From a virus: 20,293 bases of DNA. Positions 11,428 to 17,695 of the stretch are shown piece by piece. The position numbers and the translations under genes were made by a program. Each line of letters opens with the position of its first letter. Within the stretch, counting starts at the first letter, position 1. The notes under the pieces are model-generated. The model did no database searches. It was not told the DNA's origin and saw only the letters and a program-made list of their open reading frames with translations. The stretch spans positions 1 to 20,293 of the IMG/VR virus record IMGVR_UViG_3300042881_001402; one strand, given 5' to 3'.

Positions 11428-11539
11428 GAATGATTCTCTTTTCTGCTTTAGGCAGCATCGCCCTTTCTAAATCAGGGGCAGCCGTTGCGGTTTCTTTTGG
11501 CTTGCGAGCTAATCGCAAAATTCTTTTCAATCTTTCCAT
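11414..11539 (-). CDS. 41-residue basic ORF between glycosyltransferase and connector
   Basis: A small ATG-started frame (MERLKRILRLARKPKETATA..., ending AEKRIIRGNN) sits between two genes and overlaps both: 13 nt with the end of the glycosyltransferase and 14 nt with the start of the connector. Without it there would be a 100-nt gap, large for this operon. It is strongly basic (many Arg/Lys) and amphipathic at its N-terminus. No ribosome site is obvious, so reinitiation from the preceding stop is assumed. The function is unknown; nucleic-acid or capsid binding is conceivable. Confidence 0.55.
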   Translation of the reverse strand: MERLKRILRLARKPKETATAAPDLERAMLPKAEKRIIRGNN

Positions 11540-12210
11540 AATTGGTGGTGCCGTTCATCTAACCAATAAGACTTTTGATGCGGCAAAATTGCTCCCGTGT
11601 TTACATAAATTGGGAAACCTAGCGCTCTAATTCTACGGCAAAAAAGTAAATCTTCACCAATCCAATTTCCATCAACAGGGCCATCCCAAAACCAACACCA
11701 ATCAGGGCCTTGGTTTTTGTCTGCGGTTTCACGCATTTTTTCTAACACGCTGCGGTGGATAAGTAAGCAACCTGTTCCCGCAGCATCAATTTCAAAAACT
11801 GAATTCTTATCGTACTTATACAAAGGCAAAAAGCCTTCGGGTGCATCTTGGAAGATAGCAGGCACCGGTTTTGGATACGGTGCGCCCTCAATTCCAAATC
11901 CTGCAAAAACTAAACCTGCTACAACAGGGCGTTCTTTATCGTGAGCAGTTTCAAGCAACTTATCAAATGCCTCAAGTGATAACTGTTCATCGCTATCAAT
12001 TAGCAATAACCAATCAGACTTTGTGCCATCTAAGAATTGTTTTACAACTCGGTTGCGTTGTTTTGATAATAACCCTGAACCCTTAACGCGAACAAATGGG
12101 CCAAGTCTTGCTGACCTTGCCTGCGCTAATTGAATGAGGCGATAAGCAAAAGCACCATTGACGGTGCCAGGGTCGCAACTACCGATTGAAACTTTGTGAG
12201 CTGACTTCAT
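11527..12210 (-). CDS. GT-A fold glycosyltransferase
   Basis: This 227-residue protein matches short GT-A glycosyltransferases seen in phages: a nucleotide-binding start (KVSIGSCDPGTVNGAFAYRL), 'SKQRNRVVKQFLDGTKSDWLLLIDSDEQL' with the metal-binding DxD motif DSD at 72-74, the acceptor-site segment AAGTGCLLIHRSVLEKM (143-159), 'WIGEDLLFCRR' (183-193) with an acidic pair near the catalytic base position, and His211 that could complete metal binding. It would transfer a sugar from a nucleotide sugar to an acceptor. Its place directly after the major capsid gene suggests it modifies the capsid or tail, as shown for glycosylated actinophage virions; this is inference. The ATG follows GGGGGA whose Gs form the loop of a small hairpin. 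The donor and acceptor are unknown. Confidence 0.83.
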   Translation of the reverse strand: MKSAHKVSIGSCDPGTVNGAFAYRLIQLAQARSARLGPFVRVKGSGLLSKQRNRVVKQFLDGTKSDWLLLIDSDEQLSLEAFDKLLETAHDKERPVVAGLVFAGFGIEGAPYPKPVPAIFQDAPEGFLPLYKYDKNSVFEIDAAGTGCLLIHRSVLEKMRETADKNQGPDWCWFWDGPVDGNWIGEDLLFCRRIRALGFPIYVNTGAILPHQKSYWLDERHHQLWKD

Positions 12211-12286: not shown

Positions 12287-12306
12287 AACCTTCAAATTAG
12301 AAGGTT
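12287..12306 (-). other. hairpin spanning capsid stop codon
   Basis: AACCTTC (12306-12300 on the coding strand) pairs with GAAGGTT (12293-12287) around a 6-nt loop that begins with the TAA stop of the capsid gene. It precedes the longer 16-bp hairpin by 8 nt and probably acts with it. Confidence 0.55.
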
Positions 12307-13640
12307 GGTGCCACTAAACCTGTGCCTGAAATAATTGAGGCAGCAAGTGGGTAACGCTCAGCAGAAAACGCTGCATAGCCGTAAACAACTGACTTAACTG
12401 TGAGATTGCCTGCTCCAGTAGCATCGAAAGACAATGCGAATGGTGAGCCAGGTTGTTCCCAAAGGTGCATCTCAGGTGCGGCAACGCAATAGATTTCATC
12501 TTGGTTTGTTGCAGCGCCGTATGAAGTACCAACTGAAGCATCTGTGATGATTGGAAGTCCAAGCATCTGATAGCCGCTGTTACCGTAAGCTGAAGCGCCT
12601 GCGCCTGTACCAATTGCGTTCATTGGGCCACCCGCAGCAGGAACTACTAATGGGCGGTTTGAACCATCAACGGCAGCCATCAAGAAAGCAAGGCGGCGTG
12701 GGTGCATAATGAAGTGAGTTGGTGTTGTGAATGTGTTTGCCTGAACTTGCTGAATTGCATCAGCTAGTTTTGGATAAAGCAAGGCAACTGTTGGTGTTGT
12801 TGCTGTGAATGTGATGGCATTTCCACCTGAGTTGCGGATTCCCTTGATTGTGCCTGCTGTGCCTGCACCATTAAGAATCTGAGCATCAAGTGTTGTGTGC
12901 CAAGAACGGATTAGGTCGGCAACGATGAAAGCATCAATGCCTGTTCCGCGCTCAATTGCTTGCTTTGAAATATCTTGCTGACCTGCAATTGTGCGCACAT
13001 TGATTGTCAATAGTGTGTCATCTGCATCTGTTTCTGAAACCGCATCGTTCTGAGTAACCTGAACGGCTGTTGAAGTTCCAGTTGTCATACGGGAGATATT
13101 CAGGGTCATTCCGGCTGCTGGCAGAGTGTGCTTGCTTGTTGCGAAATCCGCTGTTGGGCGGCCTGCGCGAGCAAGTGGTGCTGCTAGATCAACAAGGTAC
13201 TGTGGAATAACAAGACCATCAAATTGAGCTGTTCCGACATCGCGGCGCTCGATTGATTCTTCGCGCATATGGCGAGCAAGGCGCTCATTAGCTGCGAAAT
13301 CTCCGCGTGAAGATGCTGCGAAAGCATCCTTTACGAATGAAACCTCAGCCTCAGGTGAGTATGTGCGAGCTTCGCGTGTAACTGTTGCGCCACCCTTAGG
13401 TGTAACAACTGCTGCGACTGAAGCACGAACCTCAGATGCCTTAGCATCTGCAACTGCCTGTGTGTTGAACTTTTCAATCTTTGTATCTAATGAGCGTGAT
13501 TCTTCAACCAAGGCATCAACCTTTTCGGTTTCCTCGGCGGTTAAGTCTGTGCGTTCTTCAGCGGCAACCGCTTCAAGAACTGCATCTAGTTCAGCCTTAA
13601 CTGCATCACGGCGCTCAATTACTTTGTCAAGAAATGACAT
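12297..13640 (-). CDS. HK97-fold major capsid protein
   Basis: This 447-residue protein starts with AAGGAG about 8 nt before the ATG. Residues 1-65 form a charged coiled coil (VIERRDAVKAELDAVLEAVA, EETEKVDALVEESRSLDTKIEKF), the scaffolding delta-domain of HK97-type capsids that the prohead protease removes. The rest has the HK97 fold pattern: 'YSPEAEVSFVKDAF' (E-loop/N-arm region, about 94-107), 'GLVIPQYLVDLAAPLARAGRPTADF', 'SDAVSE...TINVRTIAGQQDISKQAIERG', 'HFIMHPRRLAFLMAAVDGSNRPL', and a C-terminal 'YGYAAFSAERYPLAASIISGTGL'. It is the shell-forming subunit. The gene is set apart by hairpins before and after, the likely reason for high, separately tuned expression. The cleavage site is not identified with certainty. 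Confidence 0.95.
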   Translation of the reverse strand: MSFLDKVIERRDAVKAELDAVLEAVAAEERTDLTAEETEKVDALVEESRSLDTKIEKFNTQAVADAKASEVRASVAAVVTPKGGATVTREARTYSPEAEVSFVKDAFAASSRGDFAANERLARHMREESIERRDVGTAQFDGLVIPQYLVDLAAPLARAGRPTADFATSKHTLPAAGMTLNISRMTTGTSTAVQVTQNDAVSETDADDTLLTINVRTIAGQQDISKQAIERGTGIDAFIVADLIRSWHTTLDAQILNGAGTAGTIKGIRNSGGNAITFTATTPTVALLYPKLADAIQQVQANTFTTPTHFIMHPRRLAFLMAAVDGSNRPLVVPAAGGPMNAIGTGAGASAYGNSGYQMLGLPIITDASVGTSYGAATNQDEIYCVAAPEMHLWEQPGSPFALSFDATGAGNLTVKSVVYGYAAFSAERYPLAASIISGTGLVAPTF

Positions 13641-13753: not shown

Positions 13754-15262
13754 TTATTTTGTGTTGTTTACAATTGCCTTAGCAAGGCGAAGTGAGATTT
13801 TGCGAGATGAATTTTCTGTTGGTTCAGGTAGCGGTTCAATATAACGCAACTCTGACATTTTATGACCAACCAAAGTTTCTGTTGCTTTGTAGCCATCTTC
13901 AACTTCTTCATAAATGCGAATTAGAACCGCAGGGTCACCTTCTTCGGCTGTAACGCTGAAATCAGTTCCCGGAATACCTAACACGCCTTCTTCCATAATG
14001 TGTTCAATGCGACCTCTTGCGGTGCCGCCACTTGAATCCCATTCAACGAAATCGCCAACCTTCTCGCGAGATTCTTCTTCAAGTTCACCTTCGGAACCTG
14101 TAAGCATTGCCATCATTTCAACGGCGCGCATAATGTAATCGTGACCTTCGGAAAGATCATCAAAAATTGTTTTCAAAACAACCAAAGATTCGCCTGTTAT
14201 TTCACGGCCTTCTTTAACCGCACCAATTGCTTTGCGCAATTCTTCTCTTGCCTCAACTGATGTGGTTGGGTAGGCAGGATAAGTTACAACTGAAACATCG
14301 CCATCTGAAAGTGAAACCTCAGTTAGAACGCGGCGCGAACGATCTTCGCTCCACTTTTGACGAATAACACGGAAAGCAAAGCTCATTTGATCAACATCAC
14401 CGCGAGCAATTAAGGTGTGAATGTCGCGGGCTTCTTGAGTATCTGCTAAATCTGCGCTGAAATATAAACCGCGCTCATCTTCGGTAAGGGTTAAGGTGCC
14501 ATTCTTAGTGCGAGCCAAGGGCAAACCTTCGTGATTGACTAGCAATCGAACATCGGGGGTTTCGCTTAAAGTCTTGCGAAATGCGCCAGGGGCAATTGAT
14601 TCTTTGAATGGAAGCGGAACGCTTGAGTCATTGAAAACGGCAGCATAACCCGAAAGGCGCATTGTGCCATCGTCAGCTTGTCTTGCCTCAACATCGCGAA
14701 CTGTGAATGTGCGGCGCTCAATCTTTTTCATTTTACTCCTTGAGTTTGTTTCTGCATCTAAGGCATCAATTTTTCTTTGCGCCCAATTTTCAGCTCTATC
14801 ACTAAAATCAGAATCCCCACCCCAAAGAAGCCAAGCAACTAAACCTGCGCCGGGATATTGAGAATTTGAAGGGTCATTATTTTTTGGGGCTTGTCCATCA
14901 ACTTTGTGACGGGCAAACCAAGGTGCCATCTTGCGAACTTTGTTTTCAGATACTCGACCTGCTGCCATTTCACGCGCTTCGCGTTTAGTTGCATCAGTTA
15001 AGCCATCTCCCCCAAAGCCTTCTTGCAGATATTTCAAACCGCGAGCTGCGTTGTCACGAATAAATTGTGGAACGCTTAAATCAACGGCACGAATTTCTCC
15101 ACCCGGTTCCATATCTTCAGAAATTGAAACCGCAATCATTTGGTCAATTGCATCTTGCTTAGAATCGTGGCACCCAATTGTTGTGTAGGTTCCGTCAGAT
15201 TCCTCTTTGACCGTTGCCCAACCTGAGCAATCACTTTGTTCATCGCTTATGTAATAAGGCAT
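13754..15262 (-). CDS. fused HK97-type prohead protease with extra N- and C-terminal domains
   Basis: This 502-residue protein is far longer than the usual 180-220 of HK97 prohead proteases (U35 family), which cleave the capsid delta-domain. Residues 1-50 (DCSGWATVKE, TTIGCHDSKQDAIDQMIA) are a small Cys-containing unit common in phages; 60-175 carry 'VPQFIRDNAARGLKYLQEG', 'GRVSENKVRKMAPWFARH' and 'VAWLLWGGD', a conserved phage module of unknown function. The protease spans about 178-345: His244 in LLVNHEG and Ser294 in DQMSFAFR are the likely catalytic pair. Residues 401-478 (VGDFVEWDSSGGTARGRIEH ... VGHKMSELRYIEPLP) look like an SH3/Tudor-like barrel, and the tail is basic. A second start at ATG 14731 with its own AAGGAG fits a short product that is the protease itself. 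It is next to the capsid gene, as expected. Confidence 0.87.
   Translation of the reverse strand: MPYYISDEQSDCSGWATVKEESDGTYTTIGCHDSKQDAIDQMIAVSISEDMEPGGEIRAVDLSVPQFIRDNAARGLKYLQEGFGGDGLTDATKREAREMAAGRVSENKVRKMAPWFARHKVDGQAPKNNDPSNSQYPGAGLVAWLLWGGDSDFSDRAENWAQRKIDALDAETNSRSKMKKIERRTFTVRDVEARQADDGTMRLSGYAAVFNDSSVPLPFKESIAPGAFRKTLSETPDVRLLVNHEGLPLARTKNGTLTLTEDERGLYFSADLADTQEARDIHTLIARGDVDQMSFAFRVIRQKWSEDRSRRVLTEVSLSDGDVSVVTYPAYPTTSVEAREELRKAIGAVKEGREITGESLVVLKTIFDDLSEGHDYIMRAVEMMAMLTGSEGELEEESREKVGDFVEWDSSGGTARGRIEHIMEEGVLGIPGTDFSVTAEEGDPAVLIRIYEEVEDGYKATETLVGHKMSELRYIEPLPEPTENSSRKISLRLAKAIVNNTK
14729..14741 (-). promoter_or_regulatory. internal ribosome site and start inside protease gene
   Basis: AAGGAG-TAAA-ATG (14741-14729) lies in frame within the long gene, at Met178 (MKKIERRTF), exactly where the protease domain begins. 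This predicts a 325-residue product made alongside the 502-residue one. Confidence 0.7.
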
Positions 15263-15269
15263 TTTTTTC

Positions 15270-15647
15270 CTAAATTAGAAGTAAAACTTCAGCATCATCT
15301 TCAATGATTGAAAAATCAATCCTAGATTCAGCACTTGCCTTGATTCCTGCCATTTGTGCTTTTGCTTTTGCAACAACTGTTTTAATAGTTATTTCAATTT
15401 TAGGTTCAACAACAGGGAAGTTAGGTTGAACAAAAGAATAACCTGTTGAACTTGAGGCAGTTTGTTCTTGAGGAATTACTACGCTTGCCGACAATCCCCC
15501 AAGATTTGCTGTTGCTGTTACAACATTTGTGACCTCAGCAGTTGCGGTGGCGGTTAAATCCTGCAAATCTGCTGATGCGGTTGCGTAAACAATTGGCCCT
15601 AGAACATCAACGCCAAGCTGAGAGGTATCTAAAACAAATTGCGCCAT
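15270..15647 (-). CDS. Ala/Thr-rich structural protein, unrecognised
   Basis: This 125-residue protein starts at an ATG that directly follows the preceding stop (TAA-ATG), so it is probably translated by reinitiation. It is rich in Ala, Thr and Val: LQDLTATATAEVTNVVTATANLGGLSAS in the first half, a Pro/Val stretch (YSFVQPNFPVVEPKIEITIKTVVAK) in the middle, and an acidic end (FSIIEDDAEVLLLI). I recognise no family. The 'V-P-V-V-E-P-K-I-E-I' stretch and repeated short strands suggest a beta fibre or decoration protein. Its place between the portal-linked fibre gene and the protease suggests a head-associated role. Confidence 0.6.
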   Translation of the reverse strand: MAQFVLDTSQLGVDVLGPIVYATASADLQDLTATATAEVTNVVTATANLGGLSASVVIPQEQTASSSTGYSFVQPNFPVVEPKIEITIKTVVAKAKAQMAGIKASAESRIDFSIIEDDAEVLLLI

Positions 15648-16031
15648 TTAGCTTGCGATTGTTAGGGCAACTGTTAGAGATGCTGACGGGATTGTGTAAG
15701 TATCGCCTGCGGTGTAGGCGTTGCCGCTGATTGTTCCTGAAAATAGGAAGTTGCCTGCGGTACTTGCATCCCAAGCGGTGAAATAGGTGGCATCTTGGCT
15801 GCCTGAAATTGCTGTCCAAGTAACATCAGCATCACTTGCCATTGAACCGCTACCTGCCGCACCAAATGAAACCGACTTGCGGGTGGTTTCGGTGGCAGGA
15901 TTTGCGGTGCCGTTAGCGCCGGGATCGCCAATGTGAAGTTTTACATAGGCAGTTGATACTGAAAATGCTGTTGCGTTACCAACTGAATTAAGAAAAGCAT
16001 TTGCTAGATAAGAGCTTAGACCTGTTGCCAT
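15648..16031 (-). CDS. head fibre-like structural protein (LHIGDPG motif)
   Basis: This 127-residue protein starts in a TAATG overlap with the portal stop. The N-terminus (ATGLSSYLANAFLNSVGNATAF) and 'YVKLHIGDPGANGTANPATETTR' match a widespread phage structural family with the hallmark 'LHxGDPGxxGTxNxxxxxTR', often labelled tail fibre or head fibre. Further conserved parts are VSFGAAGSG, 'VTWTAISGSQDATYFTAWDAS' and 'GNFLFSGTISG' leading to the last strands. It is probably a virion surface protein; the location next to portal and protease points to the head, but a tail role cannot be excluded. Confidence 0.75.
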   Translation of the reverse strand: MATGLSSYLANAFLNSVGNATAFSVSTAYVKLHIGDPGANGTANPATETTRKSVSFGAAGSGSMASDADVTWTAISGSQDATYFTAWDASTAGNFLFSGTISGNAYTAGDTYTIPSASLTVALTIAS

Positions 16032-17695
16032 TATTCTTCACCCTCAACAAATTCTTCCGTGATTGATTCAATTCTTCCAAGATCATCACGCACAACCTTC
16101 TTAACAACGCGTTGGCGCGAAATTGTGTTGGTGACTTGAACTGTTGGAGATTCAACATTGACATTTGGCGCAGCAACATTGACCTGAGGGGATTCAAGCA
16201 TCACCATTGCAGGTTCAATTGTCACATTTGGCGCTTCAACATTAACTGTTGGTTCAGGAACTTGAACAATCATTGAGTTATTGCCATTGCGGGCTTCGCG
16301 TGAATTGACTTCATAAGCCGAACTTGGGTCGGCAGGATCAATGCTTGAAATCTGTTGTAGCTGAGATGAAGGCAAACCTGTGTGTTTCATATCAGGTAAA
16401 CCAACTGCATCTGTCACTGCCTTAGGGTCAAAGCCAACCTGAATCAAGTTAGAGGCAATTTCTGCTCGCAACTTCAAACCAACATCCTTGGCATCGGCTG
16501 CATCAATGTTTTGTAGCGGCACACGGTATTGATCACCTGACTCAACAGGTGACAAATCTTCAATGCTGCGAACATCGTTCAAGCTCAAGAAACCTTCACG
16601 CAATCCCTTGGTGTAGGCATCATAACGCTCAAGAGTTGTGCCGCGAAGTAGCGCATCAAGGTTAAATCGAATGAAACCATCAGGTTCAGGCAACAAAGTT
16701 GATAGTGCTTGCTCAATTCGCTCCAAGATTGGGCGCAATGAGTGTTGAACAAATGAAAGATTCTGCGCTTCAACTGATGCAAATGACATCGCACCCGCAA
16801 CAGGATGACCTAACAGGCTAAGCGGAACGCGAAAAATTCGGGCAATTTCCTCGACCGAGAACCTGCGGGTATCTAAAAGTTGGGCGTCAGAGGCGTTAAT
16901 TTGTAGCGGTTTGAACTGCGCACCACCCGAAAGGATGCCAATCTTGCCTGCACGATAAGGCCCCGTGTGAGTGATGTTCCAATCGCGCCCAATATCTGAA
17001 GCCTGTTCTTCAGTTAAATCACCCGGAACTTCAATAACACCGCCGGGGTTGGCAGCATTGCCGAAGTAAGCGGCAGCATAAGTATCGGCAGCCATTGCTG
17101 AACCAATTGTGGTTCGGCAAGCTGCGATTGGGCTTAGACCGTAACGCTGACCTGGCAAACGGAATTCAGGAATGTGGAGAACATCTTTGCCACTTAATTT
17201 TTGCTCATAGATGCCTTGAGCATCTCTTGCCTTTACATAATAAACCAAAGGTTCATTTGGATTTGGGCGCTCAATGCGAACATCGCGTGGGTCAAGAACC
17301 CAAAGCTCTTGAATGTCACCAATATCATCACGCAAGGTCATAATGTAAGCGTTGCCCTCAAGTTTGAATGAGGAAACAATCTGCTCATAAAATTCTAGGC
17401 GAGTTGTTTCAGGGTTTGGCTTTGTTACCCATTCAGGTTGCTCACCATAAACAACTGCATAAGGCAAGCGGTTGCGACCTCGGCGCACATAAGCGCCAAC
17501 AGGTAATGATGAAACGGTATCGCAAAGCAAGCGAACGCAAGAATAAACTGTTGCCATTCGGATAGCTGACTCAGCATCTACAACAACGCCTGATAATGAT
17601 TGACTTGGCGGGCGGCCAGGGATAATTGGCTCAACATATTGAGAATTTATTGCTCGCTTATCGCTTGCCCCACTTAAACGCTTAGATAAACTCAT
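16031..17695 (-). CDS. HK97-family portal protein
   Basis: This 554-residue protein forms the dodecameric ring at the head vertex through which DNA enters and leaves. The portal signature AESAIRMATVYSCVRLLCDTVSSLPVGAYVRR (41-72) is clear, followed by 'PNPETTRLEFYEQIVSSFKLEGNAYI', 'LWVLDPRDVRIERPNP' and 'VLHIPEFRLPGQRYGLSPI', and the clip/stem region 'SVEEIARIFRVPLSLLGH'. The C-terminal 80 residues are unusual: a series of short 'P-x-V-[NT]-V-E-[AS]-P' repeats (about 478-524), then a basic segment (SRQRVVKKVVRDDLG) and an acidic end (ITEEFVEGEE). It starts in a TGATG overlap with the small membrane protein and ends in TAATG with the fibre-like gene. The portal identity is confident. Confidence 0.95.
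   Translation of the reverse strand: MSLSKRLSGASDKRAINSQYVEPIIPGRPPSQSLSGVVVDAESAIRMATVYSCVRLLCDTVSSLPVGAYVRRGRNRLPYAVVYGEQPEWVTKPNPETTRLEFYEQIVSSFKLEGNAYIMTLRDDIGDIQELWVLDPRDVRIERPNPNEPLVYYVKARDAQGIYEQKLSGKDVLHIPEFRLPGQRYGLSPIAACRTTIGSAMAADTYAAAYFGNAANPGGVIEVPGDLTEEQASDIGRDWNITHTGPYRAGKIGILSGGAQFKPLQINASDAQLLDTRRFSVEEIARIFRVPLSLLGHPVAGAMSFASVEAQNLSFVQHSLRPILERIEQALSTLLPEPDGFIRFNLDALLRGTTLERYDAYTKGLREGFLSLNDVRSIEDLSPVESGDQYRVPLQNIDAADAKDVGLKLRAEIASNLIQVGFDPKAVTDAVGLPDMKHTGLPSSQLQQISSIDPADPSSAYEVNSREARNGNNSMIVQVPEPTVNVEAPNVTIEPAMVMLESPQVNVAAPNVNVESPTVQVTNTISRQRVVKKVVRDDLGRIESITEEFVEGEE
16124..16264 (-). repeat. short valine/proline repeats at portal C-terminus
   Basis: Residues 478-524 contain about five units of 8-9 residues with alternating strands, such as PTVNVEAPN, VTIEPAMVM, PQVNVAAPN, VNVESPTVQV. 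The pattern suggests a beta-helix or spike-like rod projecting from the portal into the head. Confidence 0.8.

Follow-up and report, generated by a model that had tools for sequence, protein, structure and literature searches.

A conserved internal start within a fused prohead protease gene points to two nested forms of the enzyme

The DNA analysed here (hereafter the window) is a 20,293-nucleotide viral stretch, IMG/VR record IMGVR_UViG_3300042881_001402, in which a protease gene lies between the genes for the portal (16031–17695) and the major capsid protein (12297–13640), its neighbours being the terminase, the portal, two small genes and the capsid protein. The 502-aa product (Table 1) is an HK97-type (S78) prohead protease, scoring above the cut-offs of curated family models: Pfam Peptidase_S78 (PF04586) matches residues 191–340 with an E value of 4.6e-43 and 147.6 bits (cut-off 21), and NCBIfam proheadase_HK97 (TIGR01543) reaches 112.6 bits (cut-off 59). 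His244 and Ser294, the putative catalytic His and Ser, are invariant in 53 relatives. An earlier reading made from the letters of the DNA (the sequence-only reading) had described the protease as flanked by an N-terminal module of 175 residues and a C-terminal SH3/Tudor-like barrel, and this anatomy holds, with the N-module extending to 177 residues and Pfam Hva1_TUDOR (PF11160) matching residues 403–449. The structure predictions that it had proposed agree: AlphaFold2 models the N-module, an α/β part followed by a helical bundle, with a mean pLDDT of 90, and the full-length model contains a C-terminal β-barrel at about residues 405–475. Confidence in the full-length model falls below a pLDDT of 50 at residues 173–179, the junction between module and protease. 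Among phrogs, the N-module matches phrog_2859 at residues 60–155 and the N-terminal part of phrog_80.

The Phage_capsid domain of the neighbouring capsid protein begins only at residue 161 of 447, which suggests that this protein carries its own N-terminal scaffold-like region, as in HK97. Between the protease and a Gp80-like head gene lies a 125-aa ORF (15270–15647, minus strand), for which a family-model search returned no match and no SD signal was seen at the listed ATG. Directly after the capsid gene is a glycosyltransferase-like gene (11527–12210, minus strand); in Pontimonas phage phiPsal1, glycosyltransferases occupy the equivalent place.

Table 1. Features of the protease gene, in window coordinates
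Feature	Position	Strand	Remarks
Long-form ORF	13754..15262	(-)	502 aa; N-module, S78 prohead protease and Tudor-like C-terminal tail
N-terminal module, residues 1–177	14732..15262	(-)	Small α/β part (1–57) and helical bundle (66–176)
S78 protease domain, residues 191–340	14243..14692	(-)	PF04586; TIGR01543
Tudor/SH3-like barrel, residues ~403–475	13838..14056	(-)	PF11160 and barrel in model
Long-form SD-like AGGA	15268..15271	(-)	SD energy −4.2 kcal/mol
Internal SD TCAAGGAG	14736..14743	(-)	Codon constraint in relatives
Internal in-frame ATG, codon 178	14729..14731	(-)	First base 14731; SD energy −8.0 kcal/mol
Predicted short form, stand-alone protease and Tudor-like tail	13754..14731	(-)	325 aa; start position matches stand-alone S78 proteases

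The sequence-only reading had also pointed to an in-frame ATG with an upstream AAGGAG at 14731. This ATG, codon 178, sits exactly at the protease boundary and is preceded by TCAAGGAG-TAAA with a spacer of four bases. In a scan of 15 genes of the window that covered 196 in-frame ATG, GTG and TTG codons downstream of the listed starts, no other codon reached −7.5 kcal/mol or lower. Codon 178 has an SD energy of −8.0 kcal/mol, against −4.2 for the long-form start and −8.5 for the capsid gene, values that all presuppose a standard anti-SD sequence; an SD energy is not by itself proof of initiation. Among 75 relatives, 66 have a stronger SD at the short-form start than at the long-form start. A frameshift in the A-rich stretch that follows the SD was considered and set aside, because the frame is open throughout and the A-run bears little resemblance to a classic slippery site.

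Relatives were collected in three scans of viral contigs, the first of which gave at least 599, and at least 196 loci, counting the window itself and phiPsal1, have a readable junction; they include contigs of Microbacteriaceae MAGs. The sequence-only reading had made its proposal depend on conservation of the internal start in close relatives, and an in-frame ATG, GTG or TTG with an SD energy of −4 kcal/mol or lower is present in the linker of all 98 non-redundant relatives among the matches listed. At −6 kcal/mol or lower the proportion is 83% of these 98, against 0–32% for other 24-codon stretches of the same genes. Arg175 is encoded by AGG in 53/53 non-redundant window-group sequences among the matches listed, in genes in which AGG makes up about 6% of arginine codons; RSKMKKIE, one of six peptide patterns with which the first scan was run, spans part of the junction and may have favoured those residues, but not particular codons. 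Across the same 53 sequences, serine at residue 174 is encoded by TCA (46/46) and serine at residue 176 by AGY (46/46), the constraint on Arg175 and Ser174 is the most extreme in the gene, and at no other conserved arginine position does AGG exceed a minority. When synonymous codons were shuffled with the amino acids held fixed, 1.6 ± 1.3 window-group sequences were expected to reach −6 kcal/mol and 56 did so (n = 56); in the phiPsal1 group the expectation was 7.9 ± 2.3 and the count 25 (n = 42), a weaker signal, with the SD above −5 kcal/mol in 10 of the 42. Synonymous distances are near saturation (dS mostly >1), and dN/dS in the N-module is about 0.04–0.16. The latter indicates that the long frame is under selection at the protein level, and the codon comparisons argue that the internal SD is under additional selection at the nucleotide level.

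This constraint bears on another possible origin of a short protease. It is common for prohead proteases to cleave their own chains as well as those of other head proteins, and the junction here is flexible in the model, so that a short form might arise mainly by self-cleavage in the linker, with the internal start a minor or backup source; the processing of T4 gp21 discussed in PMC9026906 counts in the same direction. Self-cleavage would, however, conserve amino acids and not synonymous codons, whereas the constraint lies at the level of nucleotides, and we regard this route as quite improbable.

The start itself appears to have turned over while its function was kept. In three relatives (L064, L066 and L068) the ATG has become CAA, and downstream of AAGGAGCAAACAA an in-frame GTG stands two codons beyond the lost ATG. 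The equivalent linker of the phiPsal1 group holds AAGGGGCAAGCA-TTG, TGGAGAAGCC-TTG or -GTG, CGGAGCACT-GTG, AGGAGTACC-GTG or GTGGAGGCTAAAGAG-ATG. Spacing between SD and start stays within 4–8 bases across relatives. A protease-domain tree requires 10 or more changes of start codon, a figure partly due to choosing the best of several candidate sites, so that not all of the changes are real events. An SD-like sequence placed exactly at a domain boundary could instead slow ribosomes while the module folds, without initiating translation; a pause site of this kind needs neither a start codon 4–8 bases downstream nor the replacement of that codon by GTG or TTG, which makes the explanation very unlikely.

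Proteases of this family that lack the module locate the internal start further. The gene of Rhizobium phage 16-3 (p004) begins in alignment with codon 178. Counted back from the GYA motif, stand-alone starts lie 25 codons upstream in 16-3 and 26–31 in phage Wrath and in two gammaproteobacterial MAG contigs (L211 and L213, with stand-alone proteases 45–51% identical); the internal start of the window lies 27 codons upstream. SD energies at these stand-alone starts range from −7 to −12.6. Because the internal start has the position of a stand-alone protease start, the fusion seems to have brought in the ribosome site along with the protease gene, and selection has kept that site. The same match in position is what a fusion relic would show, that is, the old ribosome site of a stand-alone protease persisting without importance. 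A relic would hardly account for an AAGGAG kept while synonymous sites are near saturation, for an in-frame GTG at the proper spacing where the ATG is lost, or for other lineages using different combinations of SD and start, and we consider it highly improbable.

Relatives differ in what precedes the internal start, some of them lacking residues 1–57, and the variable part is wholly absent from the predicted short form. A Cys-rich insert (CGNC...WC/FC...YC), with only a very weak HIPIP match, is found in the N-terminal region of six of them (L073, L080, L081, L082, which is phiPsal1, L209 and L210), and L076 (3622–5538) has a HAD/polynucleotide-kinase-like insert there at residues ~57–182, before the internal start. 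The Tudor-like motif, C-terminal in the window, is often located upstream in the phiPsal1 group, where it precedes both protease and internal start (L105, L122, L130, L143, L208 and L210). These patterns fit a short form that would be the constant working protease and a long form that would carry an exchangeable, head-associated part. L002 and L070 diverge from the window in their N-terminal parts but become near-identical to it at around codon 140, and remain so into the protease. Such mosaic genes, in which N-module and protease have different histories, raise the question of whether the conserved nucleotides are a recombination joint at which N-modules are swapped. In these closest mosaic pairs, however, the break falls near codon 140 and not at the SD, and the phiPsal1 group has other letters yet still an SD and a start; a recombination joint is thus extremely improbable.

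The helical part of the N-module is also found on protease–capsid fusions of Roseobacter and Synechococcus phages, on an XkdF-type protease and on a minor head protein of a Nodularia phage with Tudor and inorganic pyrophosphatase domains; more broadly, both the N-module and the Tudor domain turn up again on further head proteins and on proteins resembling enzymes. Predicted viral proteins that match in structure bear names including HAD, Dps, ParB/sulfiredoxin and portal. Solved structures include no sequence relative of the N-module or of the whole-protein profile, and because a Foldseek search of the PDB returned nothing below E 0.8 and VIA-align gave a Z of 4.1 at best, the N-module is left without an assignable fold, which does not make the fold new. 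Its distribution marks it as a mobile head-protein domain, and the targeting or assembly role that the sequence-only reading had offered for the flanking modules is plausible. In phage DSL-LC01 (L201, 3012–8303), the helical module occurs on a 603-aa protein annotated as a capsid maturation protease, in which a Pfam search found no protease match; the gene adjoins two more with this annotation and another annotated as a high potential iron-sulfur protein.

An anatomy legible in the sequences themselves—a fusion, an internal SD and start, their maintenance by selection and their positional match with stand-alone proteases—leads us to propose that the gene yields two products. The kept internal start, the saturated synonymous sites around it, the turnover of its start codon and the coincidence with stand-alone starts together make it very likely that a long form is accompanied by a short stand-alone protease made from the stronger site. 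The sequence-only reading had anticipated two products differing by the N-module, and codon constraint, shuffles and stand-alone starts now lend that idea strong evolutionary support. As an account of the whole, a probable explanation, and in our judgement the best, is that a head-associated accessory module became fused to an ordinary HK97-type prohead protease whose normal start site was retained inside the ORF, leaving two start points. Ribosomes would initiate at two places on one mRNA, the weaker site giving the 502-aa long form and the stronger, at codon 178, the 325-aa short form of protease and Tudor-like tail. Two sites of unequal strength would give more protease than module-bearing protein, and the short form would most likely supply the bulk of head maturation activity. 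That both products are made, in what ratio, and what the module contributes are points that we infer. The fewer copies of the long form could introduce the module into the procapsid, where it would be cargo or would serve as an adapter that contacts DNA or other parts of the head; we hold this carrier role only tentatively, at somewhat less than even odds.

A further reading is more speculative. The N-module may, with rather low probability, serve as a packaging tag, the protease being the long form's ticket into the procapsid and the module being carried in the virion and delivered to the next host. On this reading, the enzyme-like domain attached to the module in some relatives would travel with it, and the internal start would provide protease without the module in amounts sufficient for heads to mature normally. 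Were the packaging-tag reading true, it would describe a way of loading phage heads with cargo by means of the protease.

Protease–capsid fusions (NCBIfam NF045541; Roseobacter phage CRP-811) resemble the window gene in combining a helical module, a Tudor domain and an S78-like protease and in having an internal SD and start at a boundary; they differ in that the capsid protein lies within the ORF and it is there that the strongest internal start is placed. An internal SD and ATG stand exactly at the capsid protein start at codon 404 in CRP-811 (L200), at codon 537 in CRP-821 (L199) and in L214–L293. In the CRP-811 group, the SD at the capsid start reaches −4 kcal/mol in 38 of 39 non-redundant sequences and −6 kcal/mol in 34 of 39, where synonymous shuffles lead to an expectation of 15.5 ± 2.9 at −6 kcal/mol; a weaker signal follows the helical module (14 seen, 7.3 ± 2.2 expected). 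Because this SD and ATG are conserved, the capsid protein of the CRP-811 group may be a nested product, and on the strength of both signals internal starts may be common in the fused head genes of these phages. The pattern is not universal, since Limnohabitans phage DC31 showed no strong internal SD and start in its helical-module/XkdF gene. Fused head genes can hide internal starts, and in the family studied here automatic annotation would hide a second product in hundreds of contigs.

The p004 protease of phage 16-3 shares the S78 family and genome position with the window gene, and its ordinary start coincides with the internal start here, but it lacks the N-terminal module and has a single start. 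The phiPsal1 protein, like that of the window, combines N-module and protease, with SD and start candidates in the equivalent linker, a GTG near codon 237 and a TTG near codon 242; it differs in its sequence (about 34% identity by tblastn), in its start codons, in its Cys-rich insert, in the absence of a C-terminal Tudor domain and in being annotated as one product. A literature search covering mostly sources other than subscription journals turned up no earlier description of internal initiation in the S78 module–protease family.

Other nested genes of phages offer wider comparisons. In phage lambda C/Nu3, as in Mu I/Z, one ORF in the head gene block has two in-frame starts, and the nested short product of C/Nu3 is a scaffold without protease. 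The sequence-only reading had likened the window gene to such nested scaffold/protease pairs; the comparison fits less well, since the predicted short product is the whole protease and the capsid protein seems to bring a scaffold-like region of its own, and T4 gene 21 is the better analogue. A scaffold nesting of the lambda type was rejected because the short form keeps the full S78 domain. Two-polypeptide phage endolysin genes also encode in-frame nested products with a common stop codon, but these are lysis enzymes, proteins unrelated to those considered here (PMC9430671). In polyvalent virion-packaged phage proteins, a head-associated domain is fused to effector-like enzyme domains (PMC5512222); such an enzyme domain is absent from the window protein and occurs with the module in L076 (HAD/PNK-like) and in the Nodularia phage (inorganic pyrophosphatase).

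The closest mechanistic precedent, an experimental one, is by analogy T4 gp21/gp21s. Two proteins come from T4 gene 21: gp21 itself and gp21s, a shorter form that starts from Met45, is reported to be essential as well and has been called a puzzle (2022 review, PMC9026906). Gene 21 and the window gene are both prohead protease genes with an in-frame internal start, which gives a shorter protease in T4 and is predicted to do so here, and in both the short-form SD is the stronger. RefSeq places the T4 short start at codon 23 (L207, NC_000866.4 103448–104086) and the review at Met45; SD energies of −1.8 and −5.7, respectively, favour Met45. In T4, however, only 44 residues are lost (22 according to RefSeq), not a separate 177-aa module, and the scaffold is a separate protein, gp22. 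A sequence-profile search detected no homology between the window protease and T4 gp21. With its conserved internal SD and start, the window gene can be classed, as far as its sequence indicates, as a nested-start prohead protease gene of the T4 gene 21 kind. The aquatic phages in which this nested start is kept by selection are a very common group, apparently unrelated to T4, which suggests that producing the head protease in two sizes is a recurring solution; the group offers a second system, beside T4, in which to ask why.
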